A stretch of DNA of 64,000 nucleotides from Rhexocercosporidium sp. MPI-PUGE-AT-0058. Taxonomy: Eukaryota > Ascomycota > Leotiomycetes > Helotiales. Below are positions 4,618 through 34,692 of this stretch, in pieces (the first letter of the stretch is position 1; each line of letters opens with the position of its first letter). Location of the stretch: the NCBI GenBank assembly GCA_020746875.1, contig JAGTJL010000001.1, positions 2,914,001-2,978,000 on the forward strand. Reading direction: 5' to 3'. The notes below the pieces were generated by a model. That model saw nothing but the letters and a program-made list of their open reading frames with translations. It was not told the origin of the DNA and ran no database searches. A program made the translations under genes and the position numbers.

Positions 4618-7291
4618 ATGAGAGGTGGGCAGGAGGATAAGAAGCCTCAGAAGATGGTGCGAAGTTCAATTGCTTGCGCGAGGTGTAGGAGGAGTAAGGT
4701 CAAGTGTAAGTTGGGCGCATTCTACATAATCGAGGGGCTGTTCAATGAGAAGTGCATATGGACCACTGGTGATACTGGGGGTTTCATCCAACTATTTGTG
4801 GGCTGGGAATCAAAAGAGCAGAGGATACAACCGTCTTCTTATTGGGCAAATGCTGATTACCTTTCTAGGTGTGAACAATGGTGTTCACTCAACTTGCAAA
4901 GCCTGTGCTTCGGCCAATCGAGACTGTACATACCCTATAGCAGGGTCCACACCAGCTCCCAAACGAACCGAGCCATCCATGGGAATAAAACAAGAGGGGG
5001 ATGCGGGGGAGAGCAAGAAGCGAGTCAGGAAAGCAGAGGATACTGGACGAAGGAACAGCACAAAGCCAGGGGAAGATGTCCTAGAATCGCCAATTCTCAC
5101 GAGAAAAGTCTGGGATGAACTCTACGAGATATTCAAACTGCACTTTTCTACGGAAATGCCGTTTCTCCATCCTCCTACTTTCCGGAACCGAATGCGTCAA
5201 GCTGCTTATCCAAGGGATCCATCAACCTCGGCAGCAGATCTGGAGGATGGGAGAGTTTTGCTACTTGGTGTTTTGACACTCACTGCTCGATTCCATCCTG
5301 GATTGGTAGCTCATCATTCACCAAACCAAGATGATCCACTTGTCGCGAGTGAATATTACGCTGGGCCTCTGGCTGCAGCATTTGGACCAACTATCCGAAA
5401 TCTCACAGTCCCCTCGCTCGAAAACATTCAAGCATTGCTCATGCTTGGCCTCTACGAGTGGGGCCAAACACGAGGTCTTAGTGCTTGGCTGTATGTTGGA
5501 TTAGCAATTAGGCTTGCATTCCCCATGGGTTTGGCATATGAGGATGACCCCGACCAACAATCCAATACCCTCGTCGCAACAAACACCCGGAGATCTTCCA
5601 AGCAACCGCCATCGCCACGAGAAGATGCCATTGAGAAGGAAGTCCGTAGGCGAACCGTCTGGAGTTGCTTCATTATGGATCGTATGTTGGCAGCTGGAAA
5701 GTATCGGCCAACAATGATGAGCGTTGACAAGCTCCGAGTCCAGCTCCCTTGCTCAGATGATCAATTCCTCTTTGTCCGAAACGTCAAAACTGGATTCTTG
5801 AATTCGGATTGGCTGGAGGACAGCTCCTCTGAATATGAATCTACCGTCAACGATGATGGAGTTTTGAGTCGATACATCCGCTTGGTCGACATCTTTGGAC
5901 GGCTATCTGAGTACAGCTACGCCGGAGGGAGGAGAGCCGAAAAACGACCTCCATGGGACGAAACGACCCAATTCTTCCAGTTACGCCAGCAGCTGAAAGA
6001 CTTCCATGATGCTTTACCTTCGAATCTCGCATACACAGAAGCAAATCTATCAGCTCACATCGAGAAACGTAACGCCACAACTTACGCATCTCTTCACACC
6101 CTGTATTCCCTCTGTCTGATCATGCTGCACCGGGAATACATTCCATTTATTCCAATCCGCTGCGAGAAGCCAATCGGACCTCTGGATGAGCCAACTTTCC
6201 CAGAAGACAAGTACAAAACCCCTCCCGGATTTTGGGAAGAGAGTGCCGAGGGAATCATGAAAGCGTCCCGAGACATTGTTGATATTGTCAAGACCTGCCA
6301 GGAAGACAATGCATTACCAGAATCGCCTCTGATTGGCTTTGCTATTTACCAGGCAGCTTTCGTTTGTCTGTATGCTGCGAACTTCCCAAAGATGGACATG
6401 GCTTGCCATTTAGTACCAGAAGGGGGAATGAATGTAGACAGCGAAACAGGTCTCCCCGGTTTGACCAAGAAAATGCTCAGTGAGATGGTCCCCAGATTGA
6501 AGATGGTGAGAGGTTACCTCAAGACACTTCCGAGGATGCGGAACTACTTCCAGCGAGTCTTGGTTGAGTATTATTGCCGGTACAAGAGGAAAATTCAGTT
6601 CGAAGGGGGAGGATTGGAGGAATACAAAAAGTACGAAAGCATCTTGAAGGAGTTTGGCGAGCTGAAGGATTCGGATCTAGCCATGGGATCAGATGGATCT
6701 GACACCGTTGACCAAACCCGTTCTCGAGCGAGTACCAACGATATTTCGGGACCTGGTGTCAATGGAGACGCAATGCAGGGTGTTGAAGCCGTTCCTCCTC
6801 AACGAGCAAACGGAGCTACATCCTGGGCGCCCATCAACGCAACCAGCCCTCCAGTCGAAGTAGAAGACCGACCAAAATACACCTACGGTCCCTCTCCATA
6901 CGGCATGCCCCCATATCAACACTCCCCCAACCAATCCTCCACCGCCCCCAGCCTCATCAGTGCCAGCAACGGTGACTCCACCCCCAGCATCAATTCCCCC
7001 TACGCAAACGTCCCGCAATATCAACACCCCGCCCAACCCCCACACGTCGCCGCCTACCCCTCCGTAGCGCAACATACCATGGCTCCACCCAACGTCCAAC
7101 AACCGTACCCTTCAGAAGAGCAGTGGGAAAAATGGATCGGCGGCCAGGAATCCATCCGTATGAATACCGGCTTTGACAATTTCGCGCAGGAGAACTCGGG
7201 CGATACGTGGGTCCTGCAGGATTCGAGAGCGAATCCGAATTATATGCAGGCGGCGTGGAGTATTCCTCTTGCGGACGCTACATGGTCGTAG
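4618..7291 (+). CDS. Zn2Cys6 fungal-specific transcription factor
   Basis: Nuclear DNA-binding regulator; target genes unknown. Exon 4618-4705, intron 4706-4868 (163 nt, GTAAGT...CTAG), exon 4869-7291; 836 aa from this ATG. The N-terminus carries a binuclear zinc cluster with Cys at residues 20, 23, 30, 39, 42 and 49 (C-x2-C-x6-C-x8-C-x2-C-x6-C). The intron falls inside the codon for the third Cys. The middle matches the fungal_trans domain (PF04082 type), with the typical segments LLLGVLTLTARFHP, ALLMLGLYEWGQTRG and AWLYVGLAIRLA. The C-terminal 200 residues are P/S/Q/N-rich, as in activation regions. The start is uncertain: the same frame stays open and protein-like back to 4234 (for example RSSTPKRSHAEAFSN), but has no ATG there, so an upstream coding exon probably exists. 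The subfamily was not recognised. Confidence 0.85.
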
Positions 7292-9171
7292 GCAGTCAGG
7301 GACTTGAACTTGGGCTATTGGGATAGCACTGGTGGAGGTGAATCGGGATCGGAATTGTGGAATTTGACGTGACGTGTTTTCCTTAGATTTTGTTTGTTCG
7401 ATCTTCGTTAATGGATTGATGGATGTATGGATGAGCATGAGCGGGCAAGTAAGCAGGAAAGCGACTGGAGTTACTGTTTTCTTTGATCAATTTACTTGGT
7501 TGGCTGTTGGTACATATCAGATGACTTGTAATTAGCGATGGGCCGGGCTGGATTGGGAACTGGGTATGGGCAGGGCTGGGCTGGGTTGGGCGTGTTTGGA
7601 TGAATGGATGAAATGAGTGGAATGGTTCACTTGGATGAAATGAATTGTAGTGCTACGAAAATTCTCTTGTTCTACTCGATGGGATGGTAGTATTTTCGAA
7701 GTGTATCTGTTGTGTTTGTGTGTGTCTGAGATTGTATGTGTTGGGGGGGGGGGGAGGCGAGGAGGGAATGGGAGATTGTATGCAGGATGACATAGCATGT
7801 GCGTTGCAATTCACCTGGTGGAAAGTGGAAAGCGAAAAAGGGGAAAGGGAGAAGTTGAAAATCGGCCGTAGCTAGATCATCATAGCTAGATAGTTAAGGC
7901 GAAAAAAGAAAGAAAGAAGAAAACAACAATAGCAGATATGATAGATACAACCAAGCACCCGAACCCCGTGCTTGCTCAATGCCTTTCTCCTAATTACTAC
8001 TATGGCTAGGCGACTCGACTCGACTTGACTTGACTTGAGATGAGGTTGGGGGATGTTAAGCGAGGGGGGGGAGGGGGGAAGGGGGAGGAGTGATGAGTTT
8101 GTTTTCTTTTTTTTTTCTTTCTGTTTACTCGCTCGCTCGCCTCAGACGCCGGGGTACTGAAGCTGGATCAGTATGCATGCATGCATGCACAGGAGGTACG
8201 AAAGGAGGGTACAGTATGGGTATGCGTATGCGTATGGCATGGGTATGGTTAGGAAACCTAGCAGGGACGGCAGAGCTTGATTGATCATTCGGAGGGAGAG
8301 GTAGACGGGTCAAGAGCTCTGTGCTGTGACGGCGGAGGAATCCATTGGAGGGGGCGAGGGATGGGTGGTAGGGGATTTTTCGGGATACTAGGTACTAGAT
8401 ACTAGATACTAGGAGTAGTGGAGGGGTTTGTGTATACTTACTGCATACTGTACTTATGAAATTGGGTTTAGGAGGAGTGGGACGAGGGAGTGTTTTCAGT
8501 GGGTAGTATTCCCGGAGGGGTTTGGGTTCTTGAGAGGGGTGTGGATTGTTCGAGGGGTGCTGTTGAGGGTTAGGGGTTGGCGGTTTTCGTGATTGCGAGG
8601 AGGGTAGGAGGATGAGGAAGTGGTTCGGCAGGTACACAGGCGGGGGATGTGAGGAAATTAGAGGGTGGGTGAAAGATGGAAGGTAGAAAGAAAAACAATT
8701 GGAGAAGCATACGATACAGATTTGTATAATATTGTGAGGAGGTGTGTCGAGGTACGCATCTAATTTGCCTGTGCTGATATAAGTGCTCAACAAAAACGAA
8801 TCAATTTACTTTTGTTGGCAATAAGGAAATAGGCGATGGGTTGATATATTTTCACGAGTGTTTGCGTCTCTTCAATAGCTCATGATTGAAGAGAAGATGG
8901 GGAGTGAGACAATACAGAAAGAAGTGAAGGAAAGAGGAAAGAAAGAAGCTAGGGAAGGGAAGAGAAGGGGGGAAGGAGGAGAAGGAGGAAAACACGAAGA
9001 GTCCCCGTTTATTTCTCGGCACCTCCTCGCCTCGTTCCCCCATCGCTACAAAAAGCCACAAAAGGAACACTTACTCTTTCTTTCTCCATCTAATCCACAT
9101 CGCACAAGATAAAATTTTCAAAAAGTATATAGTTTTGTCAAGACCATCGAAAAAACAAAAATTAAACCCCC
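7292..9171. other. Intergenic, low complexity, no gene seen
   Basis: 3' flank of the Zn2Cys6 gene, followed by G-rich and purine-rich simple sequence, including a 12-G run near 7743. The short frames here are repeat-driven and unsupported. Confidence 0.5.
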
Positions 9172-9176
9172 AAAAA
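9172..9176 (-). terminator. RNA polymerase III T-run terminator
   Basis: On the minus strand a TTTTT run starts 6 nt after the tRNA 3' end, and more T-runs follow within 50 nt. This is the normal Pol III terminator position and supports Pol III transcription of the tRNA gene. Confidence 0.7.
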
Positions 9177-9181
9177 GGAAA

Positions 9182-9333
9182 TGATCAGGCTGGGGCTCGA
9201 TCCCAGGACCTTCTCGGAATATGTCACAGTTGTAAAGCTGTTAACGAGATGTGCTATTTTTCATATTAGTCCTTGTCCTCACTTATACACAAGGAAGGGA
9301 TTATACTTACATAACCAACTACACCACCCGACC
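9182..9333 (-). tRNA. tRNA-Val(AAC) with two insertions
   Basis: The minus strand folds as a tRNA. The acceptor arms GGTCGGG (9327-9333) and CCTGATC pair in all 7 positions (G-U allowed), with discriminator A at 9182. The A box TGGTGTAGTTGG is intact. The anticodon stem is TCTCG/CGAGA, with loop TTAACAC once a 21-nt intron after position 37 is removed, giving anticodon AAC. The T-arm stem CTGGG/CCCAG is perfect. The D-arm is broken by a 57-nt insertion (9254-9310); without it the D-stem GTG/CAC and D-loop are normal and the mature RNA is 74 nt before CCA. The T-loop reads ATCGAGC, so the usual T54 is A, which is odd for an elongator tRNA. The gene is either functional with an unprecedented intron or a disabled copy. 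Confidence 0.85.
9254..9310 (-). other. 57-nt GT-AG intron-like insertion in tRNA D-loop
   Basis: It lies between the D-loop (ending GGTTAT) and the D-stem 3' strand (CAC). On the minus strand it begins GTAAGT, holds ACTAAT about 10 nt before its end, and ends AAATAG. These are the 5' splice site, branch-like site and 3' splice site of a fungal spliceosomal intron, at a typical length. It also contains a perfect 7-bp inverted repeat (TCCTTGT/ACAAGGA). Seen in sequence; how, or whether, it is removed is unknown. Confidence 0.75.
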
Positions 9334-10330
9334 ATTGTGATTTTGTATCCATGATTGGATGAGAAGCGTTTGCTTATTTGGGTTTATGGAGGGGGTAGTG
9401 GTCTTTTCTTTTCGCTTTTTGAGACCTGAGGGCTTTTGTGGGGTGGGGCGGGAGGGGTTTTCTTCTTCTTTGGGAATGGAGGGGCAGGAGGAAGAGAGGC
9501 AGGGGTGTAGGTGGTGAGGTACTTGGGCAAGGTGGGGTACTCTGTTGTGTTTGTTCCTGTGCTGTAGCTTATGACATTTGGGTCTATAAATGTGTTGAGG
9601 AGTAAATTGCTGTATACCTACCAAGGTACTTATCAGAGTAAGTCCAGAGTATTACTCTGTCAAAATTGGAGGAAGAAGGAATGTAGCACTGTAGCACCCC
9701 CACGTACAAGACAAGAGCAAAAGAGGGCCGTCTTGCTGTCTTCCTGTCTCCTGTTAGAGCAAGAAATGCGCACCAGGGCAGGTCGGCTATCTATCTATTT
9801 ATCACCGGAAAAGAGCTCCATAACAATGGAACGTCCTGGCAAAGTCATCTACGTTGTACTACTCAAGGCATTTATAACAAGAGAACCCTTGTCGTGGATT
9901 TAGTTCACAGCTTTACATCAGTCCCAAGATGCCAGATAATCACAGTTCTCAACCAAAGCATACTTGACGAGAAAGAACACTTCTGAAATCAGAGGAAGCA
10001 GTATCGTGTTGTAAAGAAAGCATGCATTTATTCTTTCATTTATCCATCACCCAAAGCACGGGTATGAATCTCTATCAATCGACGCATTCATCCCTGCATA
10101 GCATTTGGACGCAAGCAAACTACCACCAAGAGGGCCGTTTGTCCATCCCATTCCATCCATTCTCGCATATCAAAACATCCCTCCAAACCCGCAAACCCAT
10201 ATATTCATCCTTCCATCCAATCCCGCCATCAAACCAAGCCCAACCGAACCAATTGTATTGTGTGTCGTTTCGCATTGTCGAGGTAGGCAAAGACAGAAAA
10301 GCAGCATGTATGTATGTGTAGGAAAGCGAT
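9334..10330. other. Intergenic, no gene seen
   Basis: 5' flank of the tRNA gene and 3' flank of the thioredoxin gene. The short frames have no recognisable domain. Confidence 0.5.
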
Positions 10331-11253
10331 TTAGACGACCGAAGCCTCAATGGCCAACTTCAAGGCATTGGGGTTCGCACCAACGACCTCCTTGACCTTC
10401 TCGCCGTCCTTGAAGATAAGGAATGTGGGCATGGCGCGGATACCGAGTTCTTGGGCTACATCTGGGACCTCGTCGACATCGAGCTTGACAAAGTGGGCGT
10501 TGGGAAACTCGTCGGAGAACCTGCAGGAGGGAGTGTTAGTATTTGAATATCGAATTTGGATCTGCAGATTGATAGGGAGGGGGATGACATACTTGACGAC
10601 TTGAGGAGCAATAACCTTGCAGGGACCGCACCAGGTTGCGAAACAATCGAGGATGACGACCTTGTTGTCGTTGAGGGCGGCGGTGAAATCAGCCTTGCTA
10701 AATGGCGAAGTTCTGTTAGCATGTGTGCTTGAAAGATTCTACCAAATAAGCAATGGACTAGGTTGATAAGGAAACAATTCCAAAGGAAGTCAGTTCAAGG
10801 ATAGAGATGGAAATGAAGAGGGGGGATAGGAGGAAGGGAGGTTGACGGAATGCCGTCTCTTCCCATCCCATCCCATCAACCCCTCGATCTACTCCCATCT
10901 TGAGAGCTCTCTTCAACTCGAATCCATCAGAACTCGAATTATAATCCCTTAATCTGGCAGTTTCTTCATCCGCAGACACCTCTTGTATCCGCATATCCAT
11001 CGATGGATCCATCCACGCTACCATCCAACCAAGAATGCAATCAAGTAGGGAAAAGCTCTCCAACGCACCTAGCGAGATTATGAACACCCATTCTTGCGGT
11101 AGTACTCTTAAAGCCTCTTGTCTGTGCGGCGTGTGTATAAAACTTTGCGTCGACCTTCGTCTGAATCGTGCGTGCGGATGTTCTCGTAGCTGCTGCTGCT
11201 GCTGCTGTTGTTGTTCGGAATAGAGAAGAGGTGGAGCGGGCGAAGAGTGACAT
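10331..11253 (-). CDS. Thioredoxin, probable mitochondrial isoform
   Basis: Small thiol-disulfide oxidoreductase reduced by thioredoxin reductase. Exons 11069-11253, 10593-10697 and 10331-10520; introns of 371 and 72 nt; 159 aa. The core is about 105 residues with the catalytic WCGPC motif in exon 2 and the cis-Pro segment [14 protein letters not shown] in exon 3. The first 54 residues are rich in Ser/Thr/Ala/Arg and almost free of acidic residues, as in a mitochondrial presequence. A second in-frame ATG at 11091 (MGVHNLAS) would give a presequence-free protein of normal cytosolic thioredoxin length, so dual localisation from alternative starts is possible (inference). The ATG at 11253 is used because the codon before it is TTG. 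Confidence 0.92.
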
Positions 11254-13544
11254 CAAAGGAGGATTAAGTAGTGTTGCAGATGGTGGTGGTGGTGGTGGGG
11301 GAGGGGTAGAGGGAGCAGGTTTGATACAGGCGTGCAGGAGGAGGCTGTGAAGAAAGGTAAATCCGACGATGCGAGCGAATCAATTGGGTTGCTTGGTAAG
11401 GGGAGGGAGAGGAGAGGAGGAAGGCTGGACTGGATGACAGTTCTAGCCGCGGAAGGCGGCCTCTTTGATTTCTAAGAGCCCGATGACGCCTTCGCTTCGC
11501 TTGCGCTTCTCCTTTTCCTTTGCTTGAAGAGAAGTAATTAGTAAGCGGGATTTGCTTGGTCTTTCTTTGTATTGTTTGGATTTAATTTGTGTGGAATCAT
11601 AGAGATAGGTATGGTATTGAAAGAATCCAAATAATAAAAGGTAATGCCTTATGCGGTCATGGATTGTCTTCATTTGCTGGCTGGCTGCATTTGATTTCCA
11701 TCCAGGGATTTGATTCCAAACCCTCCCTCCTCCCCCAGCCTCACTCACTCACCTCACTCACTCACTCACTCACTCACCTCACTCACTCACTCACTCACTC
11801 ACTCATCAACATAGATACCGAGGAGATAGATAGACTGACACACGCATACACGAAAGAATGACAATTGCTGACTTGCACCTCACAAGACGTCATATCGCCA
11901 AATCTTCTATGTCCTGGTTTATCTACAGACCAAAAAAAAAGAAACATCCGGATCTTACCTTCTTCTGCTCTTCAATTCTATTCACATCTTGTCATTTACC
12001 GAGTAGGAACTTCTTCCTGACCTGACCCGAATCCCGAGAATCCCCCAATCCTCCAATTGCCTCGTTCTCGTTGGAGAAACCCTCCCCCCCCCCCATAAGA
12101 TTCCCTCAACAGCTGAGTGAAAATGTGCCTCTTCGTATCATACAAGCGTAAAATAATCAGATCCAAAGACATTCCTCACACCCATCCAATCCAATCCAAT
12201 CCACTCCACTCCCTACTCTCTCCTCCCCCACCTTCATATCTGCCTTCTCCCCGAGTGAGACATCTCGCTCCTCCCCTCCCGTCCATTCTCCAGCTTCCAA
12301 GGGCGGCCCCGGCCAGCGAGCTGAGACATGCATACCATCCCTCGGCTCGCATCACCTGCATTACATGTATGTCTCATCTGAACCTGCTTTTCCCTTCTAC
12401 GGAGGTACTTATCGCCTTACCTTATCGATAGGAGAATTGATACAGTACAGTACAGTATGCAGGGTAGATCCCGCGAATGATAAGATGCAAGTGACGGAAT
12501 GCGAATTGAGGGGTTGGAACAGGCACGCACGGCGGTACGAAGGGACGAGAACACTGGGCGGATATTGTAAGAAGAAGAAGCACAAGTGCAGTGGGGGGGG
12601 GGGACTCTTGATGGTGTATTCATCTTTCTTTCCAGATAAACTACAGTATTCATCTCGTCTTTTCATCTCTGCTGACTCCTTTTTCTGTCCCATCTCTCCA
12701 TGCATGCATAGCAATAAATACTTCATACACATCGACAGCCATCCGGCCCGCCCGCTCGCGTCGGCGGAAGTAAGTAGGTACTTGTAATACAAACAAAAAC
12801 ATGCTCGCTCATCATTACAACCCAGGTCCATCCTTCGGTACATAGTCTGCTATCTACTATCCACCAACCTGTCTCCTGATCCGCCCATCCATCTAAACCC
12901 ATTCCCATCCCCATACCTTCATCCAGAGGGAAGCAGACAGAACACCAGACAAAGGATCGTGTGAGAGAGACTTTTTATTACCCCCTCAAACCCCATTCCG
13001 TACCACCTGAGACCCCCAAAAAGCAAGCCATTCACCCCGTCAGTCCAGCCGTACTTCCAATACAATCAAAAAGTGAGGTAAAACGCAGAAAAACGAAAAG
13101 TCTATGTGCGGGTGGGGAATCATAATTAAGAAAGGAAATCGTTCTTTTATTGCTCCGTATTGTATGCGACATCTTGCGATCTTGTGGAAACGAGAAGAGG
13201 TCCAGTGGCGAGTAGGTGATGGTGTGTTGACGTTTGATTCTTGAGATACTTTCCAGGGACATGATTTGACAAAGACGAAGAGGAGCGAGGTTGCTTATTG
13301 TAAGGAAAAGTGTCGGAATGAGAGACTTGAGTTTTGTATCTCGGTCGAAGAAAATGTTCGAAGCGAATGTTCGTTGAAGTTGTATCTCGGTCCAAGGAAA
13401 GGTTCAAAGGAGTGTGGTGTCGAAATGTCGACGATTGTTGTGCATTGAGTAAGGAAATCATTAAGTGAGTGTCGTGCTTGTCTTGTCGATGTCATGTCAT
13501 GCCTCTGGTAAGTCTAATCTGAAAATTCAACGTCGTGTCAGCCA
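11254..13544. other. Intergenic, microsatellite-rich, no gene seen
   Basis: Likely promoter of the thioredoxin gene, then simple-sequence DNA including a CACT array, C and G runs, and a TACAGTACAGTAC motif near 12440. A diverged direct repeat lies at 13334-13410, just past the 3' end of the next gene. No frame has a recognisable domain. Confidence 0.5.
11741..11805. repeat. CACT tetranucleotide array
   Basis: About 65 bp of nearly uninterrupted TCAC/CACT units. Confidence 0.9.
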
Positions 13545-16076
13545 TCATACCTCCTCTGCTAAACTGTCTCTCTTGTGGTCTCCTGATGGGCGAGGCTTAA
13601 GATCCAGTAATCGTGCACTCCCAGCGCTCATATGCCGTGCGTGCTTCTTGCCCAAATCAATGCTGGTTGCTCTTTGCATTCCGTTGTTGGGATTGGGAGA
13701 ATCAGGAGAGTCCGGAGTTTCGCTTGCGGAGTCCTGGTCAAAATCGTTCAGAAGACCTTCCCTCGATTTGGCTCTTGGCTCGCGGTGGACGACGGTAGGA
13801 TGTCTTCCAACAGCACCCCACTTGGATTGTACCGAAGTGGGACTGGCAAGACTACCACCCTCCTCGTCATCACTAGAAGGCATTGGGTTGTCGGTGGAAT
13901 GCCCTTGGATCTTGTGTTGATCCTCAGGACCTGGGGTCAAGCGACTGAAATATTCATCTTCGGCAATACCAAGCTCCTCGGCCGACTCGGAGAATTGCTT
14001 CTTGCTCATTGGACTTGAGCCGTCCGGGATAGGTTGTGGTGTTTGAGCTGATCCTCGTTTCGATCCTGCTTTTCTACCTGAAAGCCATGAGCCCTCGGAA
14101 TCTATCGAAGCTAGTGATTGTGACAGAATGTTGGCTGGCTCTGGGGAGGGGTCTTCGATGGTTCGGTGCCCGCTCGTAGGGGTTTCGTCCCGTAGGCGCA
14201 TAGCATCTATGGATCTGTAGCCACTTGTAGGTGTATCATATCTTGTTCGAGGATCTTCCAATTTCCTATCTGGTATGGGGGGTACCATATCAGCTTCCGG
14301 AGACTGTACTCTCGAATCTGGTGGTGATATTGGTAATTCTGGAAGGTCTTCCCGGAATTTCGACATGGTTCGTTTGGGTACATTAGATGTTGATCGCATT
14401 GGTGTGTATCCGATTTGTGGTCCTTGTCCTCCGCTGTGCATCGAATCCCGCGACGTATTGGAGAATGATGAAGGGGCAGAATCCTGTTGCTGCTTCTTTA
14501 CACCACGAATCTTGAAGAATGATGTCCAGGATTGAGGTGCTTTTGGTGGGGGTGTTGGAGTTCGCCGTGGATCTCGTCTTGCCGCTGTCGGTGTTGGGAT
14601 TGGTATTGGTTGTGATGCAGCTGGCTCTGGTCTGGTGAGATCCATCATTTGGGAAATACTGGATGCACCTCGTGCATGACCATGCTCTCGTGGTGAGGAA
14701 GTTGGTGATATATTCGCCCGTCCGACAGTTCCTACAATGGCCGTCTCGATGACGGGGTCCTGGAATTCGGAAGTCGGCGTTAAGTTCTCTGTGAGAAGAC
14801 TTGCACTGCGGTGGAAAGTAGGTGGTTGTATGCTGGTACCAGAATCTTGTCTGAACGCATCTGCGGGTCTTTTCCCTCTTCCATTATCCGACCCTACAGA
14901 TCCTTTCCTCTTGCTCGAGGTGACCACTGCTGCAGTACCAATTCCTAGGCCAACTATCTCTCTCCCAAGGACTCCTCGTTCCATGTTTGGTGGTGGCGGG
15001 GTTCCTTCTCGAGCAGCCGTAGCTTCATCTGCTATTTGCTTCTCTTGTCGCCTTGCTAACCTCCTCTCCATCTTGATTCTTTCAGCAATCTGCTTCTTTT
15101 CTCTCCTTTTCTGATCCCTCTCCATGAGTTCGCGCAACTCTCCTGCACTTAAATCATCTGCAAGATCATCTACCCTCTTATTGACCTTCAATGCCTCCTT
15201 TGGTATCGACACCCGGTCTGATACTTTTCTCTTCCTTGTAACTGAACCATCTGAGCCAAATCCACTTGCACCAGGTACATAGCGAGGGTTTTCGGCATAT
15301 CTAATCGTCGGTCGAGGGGCAAGCATATCAAATGCATTCAAGATGTAAGAAGGTTGGTGATCGGAGTTGGCGGAAACCGAGGACCGTAGCGACTCGGCCA
15401 GAGGAAGGGATATGTCGGAGGATGGGTTGTCCATATGTCGATTGAGCCCGCCTCGCATCTTCTTACTCTCACGCTTCATTGGTCTCCCAGACGTAGTCGA
15501 GTCCGTTGCAGGTCTGCTAGGCATGAACGCAACCATAGCCTTGATCTCAGCCTCTCTCTGATGTTCCTCCTTCCGTTTCTTGCTCGACTTTCTATGAGCT
15601 AGCTCTTGAGCACTCCTCTTGTGTAGTGTCGGCATCCTTTGCCAGTTCTGGGTGTCCTCGGGAGGTTGTGTGCTGGCTCTGAGAGGTCTCTTACCAGCAG
15701 CTGTAACTTGCTCTGGTTTGTCCGTGTTTGATCGTGCATTCCCTATGATATTCGCAGGCAGTGGTGGGACAGGAGGACGATCCAAAGTTCGAGGCACTCG
15801 GATGCTGTCTTTTCGACCTGGTGAGAAGCTGTACGTGCGGCGTCTGTCTGGGTCTCGTTGTAACTTCTTCGATTCTCTTGAGGATTTTCGTTTTGTGTCC
15901 CTCCGACTTCTTCTCCTTTCTGGGCCCGCAGTAATTATTTCGGAAGCATTATGCCTCGCAGGGTCTCCGAGTGCCCCAGCGTCATGCATTTCGGACTGAG
16001 GAATTGCTGCCCCACCCGTGGCCGCAGACGCAGACTTCCTGCGATTGCTTCTCCTCCGGAACGGCCACATGCCCAT
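13545..16076 (-). CDS. Large disordered fungal protein, function unknown
   Basis: Single uninterrupted frame of 843 aa; no family assigned. The N-terminus is strongly basic (MWPFRRRSNRRKS and several Arg/Lys/Ser-rich patches up to about residue 180). A charged, coiled-coil-like segment around residues 310-350 is rich in Lys/Arg/Glu (for example RDQKRREKKQIAERIKME). The rest is Ser/Pro/Thr-rich with polyproline patches (RRTPTPPPKAPQSWTSFFKIRG) and many SP/TP sites, the composition of a phosphorylated scaffold or regulatory protein. A second ATG two codons downstream (MWPF...) is an equally good start. The frame length and steady composition support a real gene; no enzyme motif or membrane segment is visible. 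Confidence 0.8.
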   Translation of the reverse strand: MGMWPFRRRSNRRKSASAATGGAAIPQSEMHDAGALGDPARHNASEIITAGPERRRSRRDTKRKSSRESKKLQRDPDRRRTYSFSPGRKDSIRVPRTLDRPPVPPLPANIIGNARSNTDKPEQVTAAGKRPLRASTQPPEDTQNWQRMPTLHKRSAQELAHRKSSKKRKEEHQREAEIKAMVAFMPSRPATDSTTSGRPMKRESKKMRGGLNRHMDNPSSDISLPLAESLRSSVSANSDHQPSYILNAFDMLAPRPTIRYAENPRYVPGASGFGSDGSVTRKRKVSDRVSIPKEALKVNKRVDDLADDLSAGELRELMERDQKRREKKQIAERIKMERRLARRQEKQIADEATAAREGTPPPPNMERGVLGREIVGLGIGTAAVVTSSKRKGSVGSDNGRGKRPADAFRQDSGTSIQPPTFHRSASLLTENLTPTSEFQDPVIETAIVGTVGRANISPTSSPREHGHARGASSISQMMDLTRPEPAASQPIPIPTPTAARRDPRRTPTPPPKAPQSWTSFFKIRGVKKQQQDSAPSSFSNTSRDSMHSGGQGPQIGYTPMRSTSNVPKRTMSKFREDLPELPISPPDSRVQSPEADMVPPIPDRKLEDPRTRYDTPTSGYRSIDAMRLRDETPTSGHRTIEDPSPEPANILSQSLASIDSEGSWLSGRKAGSKRGSAQTPQPIPDGSSPMSKKQFSESAEELGIAEDEYFSRLTPGPEDQHKIQGHSTDNPMPSSDDEEGGSLASPTSVQSKWGAVGRHPTVVHREPRAKSREGLLNDFDQDSASETPDSPDSPNPNNGMQRATSIDLGKKHARHMSAGSARLLDLKPRPSGDHKRDSLAEEV

Positions 16077-30310: not shown

Positions 30311-32646
30311 ATGTCTCGAGTCGATCAAGCTGCCTTCCCAGCCCTGGCTGGCCAAGGTCTCAAGATCGTCAACGTCAAAGGAGACGGTACGTAATCCCAC
30401 TGCCCTGTAGAACTTCAATCTTGTATTCTTTTGCGCGTCGAAATCACGCTTCTTGCTTTTTTTTGCTTTGTTGTCATGCTTTTTGCAGTCGTCGTTGCCG
30501 TTGTCGGCGTCGCCGTTGGGATTCGCACAGATTTCCACTAGCACCAGTGTGCGGACTGCGGACTGCATAATTCATTTTTTGAAATTATTTGTGGGAGATT
30601 TATTGTTTTATTAGTCTATGATGTATTTCGCCGAGTTACGAGCATGTGATGAGGGGCGTGACTATACTATCGTCACTTCCTTACCTCATCTCCGGCATTG
30701 TTGTGTTTCCGCTTCCGTTATGTCGTCAGCCACATGCGCATTTTCTTGACCTCATCCTCCTTGATCTCGCTGCTGTTATCCTTCCTGTTGTTGACCTTAT
30801 CATCGTCTCAACATGATATGGCAAACAGCATTCAGTCAAAGCTTCCATCTCTAGACATCGTCTTCAGTCAGGACTGGTGTCATCGTTCCTTCCTTGACAG
30901 ATTTTTCACTCTACTTCAACGTCATTCAACTTCAAGCTACTCAAGCATTCAACTTCACCTTACCCATACATGTCATCTCATTACATTCCTACTCCATAAT
31001 CTAGAGGGCTGAGTCATTGTGTCTTCCCATTACATCACTTCAACACTACATTTATTATGTCAGTATTTCTTCAATCATACATTTCATTATCAGATTGTTC
31101 ACAGCTTTGTGTCTCTTGCCAGGGCGGACGTTCTTTAATTTGCGCAATTACATCATATCCATAAATATTTGCGAGGACAAAATCTGATGCTTTTCTAGGC
31201 AACTGTCTCTTCCGCGCCCTTTCCGACCAGCTGTACGGACATCAAGAAAGGCACGAGAACATCCGTGCAAAAGTCGTCAACTACATGCGAGAAAATCCAA
31301 ACGACTTCAAGCCATTCGTCGAGGTCGGTGGTAGTCTTCGACACGCGCCAAAGCGCAGATGCACATCAAAAGGTTCTACCAAGGGACCTACCCAGGATGA
31401 GATCGACACCACCTGGGAACAATACCTTAAGGACATGGCCAAGTCAAGAACTTACGCAGATCAGCTTGAGGTCAGGGCTTTTGCAAAGGCCTACAACATT
31501 GACGTCCTGGTCCATGGGTCGGAGACAATCTACAATGTCCACATTACCGCCATGGACACACCCAACGCCGCTCCTCGCCGAATTATTCACATCGCAATCG
31601 TACGTTTCCCCTTGCATAATTTCCAAATTGATACTTTGTGCGAACTGCCTAAGTGGGCAGCTCGTCATCGTAGATGGTTCTGGGTGAGGGTTGAGCGCTT
31701 GGTATTTTACCTAAGCCAGCCCCTTTTCCCACAACCGAGAATCTCGCTTAATTGATTATTTTGCCTACGAATTGCAACTAACGTTCCACAGGCAGCCGAG
31801 CATTATCGATCGGTCCGGAACATCAACGATCCAGACAAGGGTCCAGTTATGACCCGAGTAAAGGGCATGGACCCCTTCAAGGTCCGTACGGCCAAGCACC
31901 TGGCCGGATGCGGATCGTCCTCGGTATCCGAGAAATTTGTTGGAGCATCTAGCGGAACTGTCTCGTCCACAAGCTTGGTGACTCCACCACCGGCAACAAG
32001 ACCTCCCCGGGACCCAGGGCTCGCATTCTTGTCAGAGGAGTCAGATTCCGAGGAAGAGAAGAAGCCGGTCAACAAGCCGGTCGACAAGCCAGCCAAGAAG
32101 CTGACCCCAAAATCTAAGCCAATCGTCAACAGACCGACCCTTGGATCCATCACCTCCTCCTCCGCCCTAGCCAGCAACTGTGACAGTCGACGTGCGCTAA
32201 AAATCGCCCCGGCTCTATCGTCAAGACTAACTCCCCTCAAGGATGAGGGACTTGGATTCTTGGACGCTTTCAGGGATGACTCCGAGGACGAGGACGAAAG
32301 CTGGAGTCCTGGCCTCCCAACAAAGAAGGCTCTAGCATCAACACCGGCAACACCTTCGTCGCCAACCAAGAAACGAAGGCCTATTGTTGGTCCAGCGGCG
32401 GGAGGACCAGCACCAGCACCAACCTCGTTGCCAGCAAAGAAACAAAAGTTCGTCGACGGGCTAACTCGGGCTCCAAGGTCAATAACAACTTCGGCAACCA
32501 CTAAGAGACGAATGCGTGCCGACCCTCCAAAGGCCACTCCACGTCCAACACCAATGCCGGAGCCGGACCCGGCACTTGCGTTCTTGGACGCCTTCGCTGA
32601 CGACCCCGACGACAAGGACGAAGACTGGCAACCTAGTTTTCGCTGA
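30311..32646 (+). CDS. OTU-family deubiquitinase (OTUD3-like)
   Basis: Cysteine protease that removes ubiquitin. Exons 30311-30386, 31199-31599 and 31792-32646; 443 aa. The OTU core begins at once: D25-G-N-C28 (KGDGNCLFRALSDQLYG) is the catalytic start, RTYADQLEVRAFAKAYNIDV is the conserved Q/E helix, and EHYRSVRN supplies the catalytic His163. Intron 1 is 812 nt and splits the GDG codon three residues before the catalytic Cys; intron 2 is 192 nt. The rest (about 230-443) is Pro/Lys/Ser-rich and acidic. It repeats a motif three times: DPGLAFLSEESDSEEE near 233, DEGLGFLDAFRDDSEDEDESW near 310 and DPALAFLDAFADDPDDKDEDW near 418, the last at the C-terminus. Substrate preference cannot be read from the sequence. 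Confidence 0.88.
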
Positions 32647-34692
32647 ACGTCGCGCTTCGCAGCCGACTTCACCGGAGTCGAGTTCACTAACCTCTGAAGG
32701 ACAAGCGTTGGATCTAGAACAATAGCAACCGCAACTGGAGACGGTGAACTTTGAAGTTATCGTAGTCTTTATGATTAGATGAGTAGGATGTCAAATGTTT
32801 TAGCGGGTCATTAGATTGAAATTAGCGACGGCCCTTCATGGTATAGGATGGAGCGGACAATCTGTATATTTCCTTTATTGGCGACGTTGGATTTGTTTGC
32901 TTTGATTGGAAACTTTGGTTGCGATACATCATGGCGATGGATTGTTCGATAACTGGGACGCAGAGACTCGCAGAGACAATTTTGTATTAGAATACCTAGC
33001 CATGGGACACTGGTGCTTCATTCCATCTGTTTTTGGGTGGAGTGAGGTTGCTCATAGGTGCCCTAGATGTGTCGTTCATTCTTACGAACTATTTTATGCA
33101 CTATGATACTTTGCAAATTGAAAAATTGTATCGTATGAATACTTCAAATCGATGCTTTCCCGCCTCTTGAGGCCTAGACACCTTGCCACATATTCTTGTC
33201 GCTGATGAGACATGAACCTATTCCCACGTCTCACACACTCAAGTTTTCCCCACGTTCGACTGCATCCTCTTACATCCTTTCCCTCCGCGATATCCATCTG
33301 ATAGAGGGCTGAATCTGAGGGGTTCATCCCTGCCCTCGCCACCGGGTTCCCGAGGTGTAAGCTCATCTCAAGTCCACCGTCCGCGCCTGCCTTCCCAAGA
33401 CTCTCCATTTCTAAACAAGATTTACTAATGCATCACAACTACCTGTCTTGATACCTCGCGGTTCCCGCACAAAGTTTCCAGGCTGCCTCCATTTTCCTTA
33501 TTTCCTTCCTTCCTTTTTTTCACGATACATGCGCACACTATTCTGCGACGGCTCAAACTTACCTTTCTTCTATCTCTCTTCATCATGCTTATTAGGGAGG
33601 CTAAGAATTATGATTTGCGAGCTTCACGAGATATTACTTCCACGTCTGTGTTTGTCTTCCTCGATATTACTGCTATCTTGGGCTAGTATTCTATTACTAA
33701 GACAGGCCCATCATGCCGGCGGTACTTTTGAAAATCAAGATCCGCACACCCATAATCACCATCAGCACTTCTCATATCATGACTCTCCATATACCGACGT
33801 CCCCAAATACAGGAAGGAGTTTGATCACTCCAGTCTTAAACACCAAATATTTAAATTCCCATAATCCAAGGCGGAACTTTTCTCATTTCCTCAGTTCACC
33901 TTGTGGCCCGCTTTCTCAGCACTATGCCCACCCCTCTCTGGATGAGGGTGAGGATGACCATGAAACTTTTTTTCTTTTCTCTTTTTCTTTTTCCTTTTTG
34001 AGACTCACTCAAGCTCCCAGTAAATGATTCACTCGTGGTGGCTCTAGGTGATGATTTCCGAGGCTAGTTTCTGGCGGTTGATGATGTGAGAAGGAAAGAT
34101 GATTGAAAGAAGTGTGATCATGTGGGGCAGAGGCTCCAATGCAATTTATGTCACTTGAAAGACTTACATTGGAGGCGAGCGTAGATTAATTTAGACAAGG
34201 CTTTTTAAGTGAGTCAGTGAGGCCAAAATATTTTGCAGTGAGTTTAGATGTGGATTTTATGGATCAGCAACGGGAAAAATAAAAAAGTGGGAGGATGATT
34301 AAAGGGAAGATAATAACATTAAGTTGAACCATGAACAACAGCCAGATCAATATTGGAATCTCGACATGACCATTTCCACTTCGTCTTTGGACCTGAGTAG
34401 TGCTGTTATAGCCCGAGCTGTGGGCGAGTTAAACCTGAGCTAGGCTGAGCAAGTGAGCCAAGGAGGTGAGCCCACGGTGGGTAGGGGTGACCGGCTTGGG
34501 TTCCTCGGCTACGACGGCTGCCGTGCTGGCTAAAATTGGCAAGAGTAAGGGAGATTCTTTCGGGGTCGATTTTGGATCCCTGTTCGCAAGAGCCGCACTG
34601 AACAAATTACCGAATATAGTTGGGCTGATGACTAGAAGGTTGTTAAGATCGGAGTTTGGAATCTTTAGGCATGAAAAGTAGAAGGTATATAC
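32647..34692. other. Intergenic, no gene seen
   Basis: 3' flank of the OTU gene, then 1.5 kb with only short frames and T-rich runs (near 33970). The + frames at 33448-34027 have no recognisable domain. Confidence 0.5.

Follow-up and report, generated by a model that had tools for sequence, protein, structure and literature searches.

According to the available portions of published accounts, eukaryotic tRNA genes are limited to one intron, with a search for noncanonical introns described for archaea (PMC8450103), tRNA splicing is independent of the spliceosome (PMC13149111), and spliceosomal introns are tied to RNA polymerase (Pol) II transcripts (PMC5499181). Ectopic tRNA introns occur in Cyanidioschyzon merolae, and many are found in the nucleomorph of Guillardia theta without a defined bulge-helix-bulge (BHB), as stated in the part of that source that was available (PMC3978253). 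The inserts described here resemble the introns removed by the tRNA endonuclease, both those at position 37/38 and the ectopic ones of C. merolae and archaea, in that they interrupt tRNA genes and may sit in the D-arm or the variable arm (PMC3978253, same part); endonuclease introns are recognised by the BHB, whereas the present inserts have GT-AG ends and a branch site, and the BHB structure is lacking at their junctions.

With the U2-type introns of fungal mRNA, these inserts share the GT-AG ends, a start in GTAAGT or GTACGT, a CTRAY element 10-14 nt before the AG and a length of 50-59 nt. They differ in lying within tRNA genes that have internal Pol III promoters and in following tiny first exons, with 19-23 nt before the D-arm introns and no AG before the 5' splice site. 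Introns in the U6 genes of fungi are known, and these likewise place a GT-AG type spliceosomal intron in a short Pol III RNA; U6 is, however, itself a part of the spliceosome, whereas a tRNA additionally needs processing by RNase P, RNase Z and the tRNA endonuclease. Spliceosomal introns in the rRNA genes of ascomycetes were reportedly described by Bhattacharya and colleagues, and would represent mRNA-type introns in a stable non-coding RNA of this group, although rRNAs are Pol I transcripts and tRNAs Pol III transcripts. A limited literature search, by which novelty was partly checked, returned by title no report of spliceosomal introns in tRNA genes. Judging from the nucleotide sequence, we consider it likely that the Pol III transcripts of several nuclear tRNA genes of Rhexocercosporidium sp. 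MPI-PUGE-AT-0058 contain U2-type spliceosomal introns besides ordinary endonuclease introns.

The tRNA-Val(AAC) gene and its paralogs

The window (the whole stretch of 64,000 nucleotides that was analysed) contains on its minus strand, at 9333-9182, a tRNA-Val(AAC) gene with two inserts, one of 57 nt in the D-arm and one of 21 nt at position 37/38 (Table 1). Both had been put forward in the original prediction, together with a well-folded tRNA body, and the sequence reads as claimed: the acceptor stem (GGTCGGG/CCTGATC) has 7/7 pairs, two of them G.U, the T-stem (CTGGG/CCCAG) has 5/5 and the anticodon stem (TCTCG/CGAGA) has 5/5, the anticodon AAC being read from the sequence. The A box, TGGTGTAGTTGG, lies entirely within exon 1, and a TTTTT run is present. 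The D-arm insert reads GTAAGT...GGACTAATATGAAAAATAG, and its ends are fixed, allowing no sliding (exon 1 ...TTAT, insert GTAAGT...ATAG, exon 2 CAC...).

Table 1. Features of the interrupted tRNA-Val(AAC) gene (window positions)
Feature	Position	Strand	Basis or remark
tRNA-Val(AAC) exon 1	9311..9333	-	nucleotides 1-22, 23 nt with 20a; sequence GGTCGGGTGGTGTAGTTGGTTAT
57-nt GT-AG insert, spliceosome-type	9254..9310	-	between nucleotides 22 and 23, D-arm
5' splice site GTAAGT	9305..9310	-	sequence; commonest in the 34 ORF-supported introns, 8/34
Branch-site-like CTAAT	9265..9269	-	11 nt upstream of the insert's 3' end
3' splice site AG (AATAG)	9254..9255	-	sequence
tRNA exon 2, CACATCTCGTTAACA	9239..9253	-	nucleotides 23-37, anticodon AAC
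Canonical 21-nt tRNA intron at 37/38	9218..9238	-	ARAGORN i(39,21)
tRNA exon 3	9182..9217	-	nucleotides 38-73; contains B box GGGATCGAGCC
T-run TTTTT, Pol III terminator-like	9172..9176	-	sequence

With the D-arm insert cut out, ARAGORN returned Val(aac) with a 21-nt intron; the uncut gene was misread as Trp. Because 26 of 78 wrong excisions were also called some tRNA, ARAGORN alone cannot set the exact boundary of the insert. The boundary is set instead by an uninterrupted paralog, L003, with which the D-arm of the window gene is identical after removal, as evidence that excision does restore a normal D-arm in the manner predicted. A scan of the whole window with ARAGORN, and with Rfam at gathering threshold, gave no tRNA or other match; the only sub-threshold Rfam hit in the window, to the snoRNA Afu_304 (17 bits, E 0.75), was taken as chance. 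Elsewhere in the window, at 31803-32687, long open frames of 294 and 265 codons lie on opposite strands and overlap each other. A Fungal_trans transcription factor domain was also detected and, together with the style of the introns, would point to a filamentous ascomycete.

Val copies were collected from the genome (62.7 Mb in 60 contigs) by a whole-gene DNA search, which gave five matches, and a search for the exon-1 pattern, which gave 41 (three mismatches in 36). Four Val(AAC) copies were found, and three of these (window, C45 and C12) are interrupted at the same bond. The fourth, L003 on contig C1, lacks the insert in its D-arm and retains a 17-nt intron at 37/38. At exactly the bond of the window insert, the C45 copy (L004/L008) carries a different one of 50 nt, GTACGTTCTACTTC...CTACTAACACCTTCACAG, which runs GTACGT...CTAAC...CACAG. 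The 23 nt of exon 1 are identical in the window gene, L003 and the C45 copy, and the 37/38 intron measures 17 nt in the latter two (ARAGORN i(39,17)) as against 21 nt in the window. Viral contigs scanned for the pattern of the interrupted Val D-arm gave 0 matches.

The C12 copy lies in two pieces 13.3 kb apart. The 5' part, at C12:3184288, consists of exon 1 with two changes followed by GTACGTTC, and the 3' part, at C12:3170990, reads ...GCTAATAGGATTAAAG and then exon 2; strand, order and distance suggest that the two belong to one gene. A transposase frame with stops, which we take to be Tc1-type, adjoins the 5' end of the intron on the opposite strand (...FWPPFSPDSNPTERVW...; L009, C12:3182770-3185788), and since its end adjoins exon 1, this copy has been invaded.

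Flanking sequences of the Val copies were compared against shuffles. Upstream, the flanks of the window and C12 copies show relatedness (a score reached by 0/2000 shuffles) and L003 and L004 do so weakly (14/2000), while by the same measure no relationship was seen in the remaining four upstream pairs or in any of the six downstream pairs. Because the insert is present in both members of one flank pair and in one member of the other, the simplest history may be, tentatively, an ancestral D-arm intron that was lost from L003. Such a loss would have been precise and possibly proceeded through a spliced RNA still holding the 37/38 intron; the retention of that intron in L003 would fit an RNA intermediate that had lost the D-arm intron alone.

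Interrupted tRNA genes of other isotypes

A search for further interrupted tRNAs, suggested in the original prediction, turned up Arg(TCG), Leu(TAG), Leu(CAG) and Gln(CTG) by covariance and pattern methods. In an incomplete tRNA census, the Rfam tRNA model scored 63 of 2,658 candidates and gave 47 matches, all of which were read. Among the 47, only the Arg(TCG) gene at C23:1751603 has such an insert; it also has a 37/38 intron, and it was found without any use of splice signals. Its insert of 59 nt (GTAAGT...TTCTAATGCGAAGTTTCATAG) lies between variable-loop nucleotides 47 and 48, and removal gives AGATT, which is also present in L034 and L035, Arg(TCG) genes that have no such insert.

The D-loop pattern, an A box closely followed by GTAAGT or GTACGT, gave 58 hits as against 96 for a reversed-pattern control; 50 of the 58 were fetched, one more is the known C45 gene and 7 were left out. 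Since the pattern required the 5' hexamer and its hits fall below the control, this hexamer is not independent evidence in the Leu and Gln inserts. A score for acceptor and T-arm pairing separated the real tRNAs, with 21-23 of 24 points, from the rest, with at most 14. The real ones were the Val genes of the window and C45, Leu(TAG) on C2, Leu(CAG) on C8 and Gln(CTG) on C6; exon 1 of the C12 Val copy was also among the hits. A wider 5' splice-site pattern (77 hits, reversed control 184; 30 of the 77 had loci, 20 of them new) yielded no further tRNA among the hits read, which comprised those with loci, the hit at C23:504862, itself no tRNA, and those shared with the fetched hits of the narrower pattern.

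Both Leu inserts, of 55 nt in Leu(TAG) and 54 nt in Leu(CAG), sit at 20/20a, run GTAAGT...CTRAY...AG and end in CTGACAATTCATCAG and CTGACAATAAACCAG, respectively. ARAGORN misnames both genes after removal of the insert (aag and SeC), and their anticodons were read by eye from the anticodon stems CTGTG/CGCAG and CTAGT/ACTAG. The Gln(CTG) insert, of 60 nt between GGTTA and GCAC, ends in TTAT and thus has no AG if the D-arm is restored exactly. This copy, with a T-stem of 4/5 and TTTT inside the insert, looks decayed; on these three features at least one insert-bearing gene looks dead. Other irregular loci include two tRNA-Ile(AAT)-like sequences (L055, C3:886381-886454; L065, C58:568351-568424), probably decayed, in which the 5' strands of the acceptor mismatch the 3' strands, and a Gly gene (L059, C59:2214997-2215152; anticodon read CCC) whose anticodon loop holds an unusually long insert, about 84 nt, lacking a terminal AG.

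Acceptor (7/7) and T-stem (5/5) are intact in the window, C45, Leu(TAG), Leu(CAG) and Arg genes, and the two Val and both Leu genes among them possess the full set of acceptor, T-arm, anticodon arm, A and B boxes and T-run; the Arg gene has all of these apart from a full T-run. Runs of 5-9 T lie within 5-16 nt downstream in five of six genes; the Arg gene is followed by no more than TTTT, at 38 nt, and its Pol III termination is therefore less clear. In the box numbering given in the available part of PMC3978253 (A box, nucleotides 8-19; B box, 52-62), the start of each D-arm insert directly follows the A box, and the end of the Arg insert immediately precedes the B box. Both boxes are spared in each gene, which, to judge from the four bonds interrupted, would fit transcription by Pol III. 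Of the six genes found in addition to that of the window, Val C45, Leu(TAG), Leu(CAG) and Arg have intact GT-AG inserts, the C12 Val copy has both ends and Gln lacks the 3' AG; all six inserts start with GT, and they lend support to the predicted GT-AG intron in a putative Pol III tRNA gene.

DNA searches with the insert-free Leu(TAG), Leu(CAG), Arg and Gln genes found in the genome only the respective query gene. The intact Leu D-arm pattern occurs in five places, namely three Leu(AAG) genes, L068, whose Leu anticodon is read as CAA (taa according to ARAGORN), and one site with no Leu-like anticodon loop in the next 25 bases. By these two approaches, in an incomplete tRNA census and with a pattern that would miss Leu genes of other D-arms, no uninterrupted Leu(CAG) or Leu(TAG) gene was found. 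Under ordinary wobble, CUG is read by Leu(CAG) or Leu(UAG), and both of the genes found are interrupted. CTG accounts for 53 of the 269 leucine codons in six window ORFs.

The U6 model matched C12:3467522-3467630 (109 nt, 66 bits), C1:767328-767482 (155 nt, 39.8 bits, below the family cut-off) and one weaker locus. The core reads ACAGAGAAGATTAGCATAGCCCC in the C12 copy, which is uninterrupted but has GCATAGC in place of GCATGGC. In the C1 copy it reads ACAGAGAAGATTAGCATGGC (also read ...AGCATGGC) and then GTA, and this copy is apparently interrupted by about 50 nt starting with GTA. U6 would then be another Pol III gene class with an apparent insert in this genome.

Intron signals and competing explanations

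GT at the 5' and AG at the 3' junction were found in 6/7 inserts (window, C45, both Leu, Arg and the C12 ends), Gln being the exception, and CTRAY lies 10-14 nt before the insert end in 7/7. Six inserts measure 50-60 nt; the C12 insert spans 13.3 kb, outside the range of host mRNA introns. As a null pool, 266 GTAAGT/GTACGT starts were cut at 50-60 nt, giving 2,926 segments in which real mRNA introns are included; a terminal AG occurs in 7.9% of these, CTRAY close to the end in 10.1% and the two together in 0.92%, compared with 5/6 size-limited tRNA inserts. Leaving out the window's own insert, which had been chosen for this look, 4/5 combine AG with CTRAY (3.6e-8). The 34 ORF-supported introns of this genome, defined by joined open frames with CTRAY and YAG as selection criteria, are 44-99 nt long and start with GTAAGT (8), GTGAGT (5) or GTACGT (4) among other sequences; CTRAY, whose presence was thus selected for, lies 7-18 nt from their 3' ends. 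Selection by Pol III against T-runs in the inserts was considered and dropped as not significant; the inserts other than that of Gln have no T-run, but this carries little information, TTTT occurring in only 4/23 ORF-supported introns of 45-65 nt.

The anatomy of the genes, its recurrence, the intron grammar and, for Val, the exact match to an uninterrupted paralog were established directly. That the inserts represent intron-like or random DNA in decaying tRNA genes, with no splicing taking place, is improbable. Two of the genes do look broken, Gln by the want of AG at the exact 3' junction and C12 Val by its transposase-bearing insertion, and the window Val copy could be dispensable, because the uninterrupted Val(AAC) gene L003 exists. 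Decay is opposed by the intact acceptor and T-stems of the window, C45, Leu and Arg genes, by the restoration of the D-arm or variable loop upon exact removal in four isotypes (Gln counted), by the retention of branch site and AG despite diverged interiors, and by the failure of the genome searches to find a replacement Leu(CAG) or Leu(TAG) gene. The main alternative named in the original prediction was a recent insertion by which this copy had been inactivated. This is disfavoured, as three of the four Val(AAC) copies found carry an insert at one and the same bond; a lone dead copy is further disfavoured by the Val inserts having no detectable interior similarity and by Leu and Arg genes having inserts of this kind too. 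A working intron was to have been doubted if several Val(AAC) genes elsewhere proved intact, and the genome-wide search did find an intact copy, but a single one, L003. Comparison of insert interiors in 15 pairs revealed no similarity above that of shuffles (lowest 75/1000, for Leu(TAG)-Leu(CAG)), so that the inserts are not copies of one recent element; a family of introner-like elements, for which near-identical copies are expected, was rejected, none being present in these pairs.

It is very improbable that the inserts are tRNA-type introns at ectopic sites, of the sort that the tRNA splicing endonuclease removes in C. merolae and some archaea, even though this host already has introns at 37/38 and such ectopic introns are described for the D-loop and variable arm in the available part of PMC3978253. 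In a simple pairing count, which is no structure probe, the BHB outer helix at six insert boundaries had 1,1,1,1,0,3 of 3 pairs and the central helix 3,1,3,1,2,2 of 4, whereas five canonical control introns, delimited by hand, gave 3,3,3,2,3 of 3 and 1,1,1,3,2 of 4. Because the central-helix counts are low in the controls too, discrimination is left to the outer helix, which corresponds to the anticodon stem in the controls; the Arg insert passes this test and the other five do not. The conserved part of the inserts is moreover GT...CTRAY...AG, which endonuclease introns do not need. A BHB intron was rejected on the pairing at the insert junctions, and the new endonuclease site in the D-loop that had been considered for the window gene is disfavoured by the same geometry.

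There is also very little probability that the GT-AG introns belong to Pol II transcripts crossing the tRNA genes, with any tRNA coming from uninterrupted copies only: the spliceosome does act mainly on Pol II transcripts, and exon 1 of the window gene contains the end of a 101-codon frame read from the same strand (9624-9319), but the introns lie exactly inside tRNA bodies of four isotypes with A and B boxes spared, the ORFs at 7200-13600 have at most 151 codons save for frames of 848 and 843 codons at the edges, and an uninterrupted Leu(CAG) or Leu(TAG) gene was not found. Self-splicing group I or II introns were rejected because their catalytic core needs more than the 50-60 nt available, and no Rfam match at gathering threshold was obtained in the window.

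Proposed maturation of the interrupted tRNAs

If the inserts are U2-type spliceosomal introns, the entire gene would be transcribed by Pol III, with the A box ahead of the D-arm inserts, the B box behind them and both boxes spared by the Arg insert. In the transcript, GUAAGU would base-pair with U1 and CURAY with U2, and excision of 50-59 nt by the nuclear spliceosome would restore the D-arm or variable loop. Because the tRNA endonuclease gauges its cut from the folded body of the tRNA, it could remove the 37/38 intron only after this spliceosomal step. From sequence features we infer that Pol III transcribes these genes, that the spliceosome acts on the transcripts and that the two reactions follow in this order. 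The stronger proposal, that the spliceosome is an obligatory tRNA-maturation enzyme in the lineage of this fungus, we regard as evenly balanced; the only CUG-reading tRNAs (Leu-CAG and Leu-UAG), one Arg and most Val(AAC) would then need GT-AG removal followed by the cut at 37/38.

If this reading is true, tools for tRNA detection would be liable to miss such genes, as ARAGORN and the Rfam gathering-threshold search did in the window, and tRNAs supposedly missing from other fungi would need rechecking. Two introns of two kinds per gene would, if true, contradict both the one-intron limit and the statement of spliceosome independence, as these are worded in the available parts of their sources. 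The spliceosome would be acting on very short Pol III transcripts with first exons of about 20 nt, and the order and coupling of the two splicing systems would be directly testable. Should the obligatory role hold, translation would depend directly on mRNA-type splicing of Pol III transcripts.
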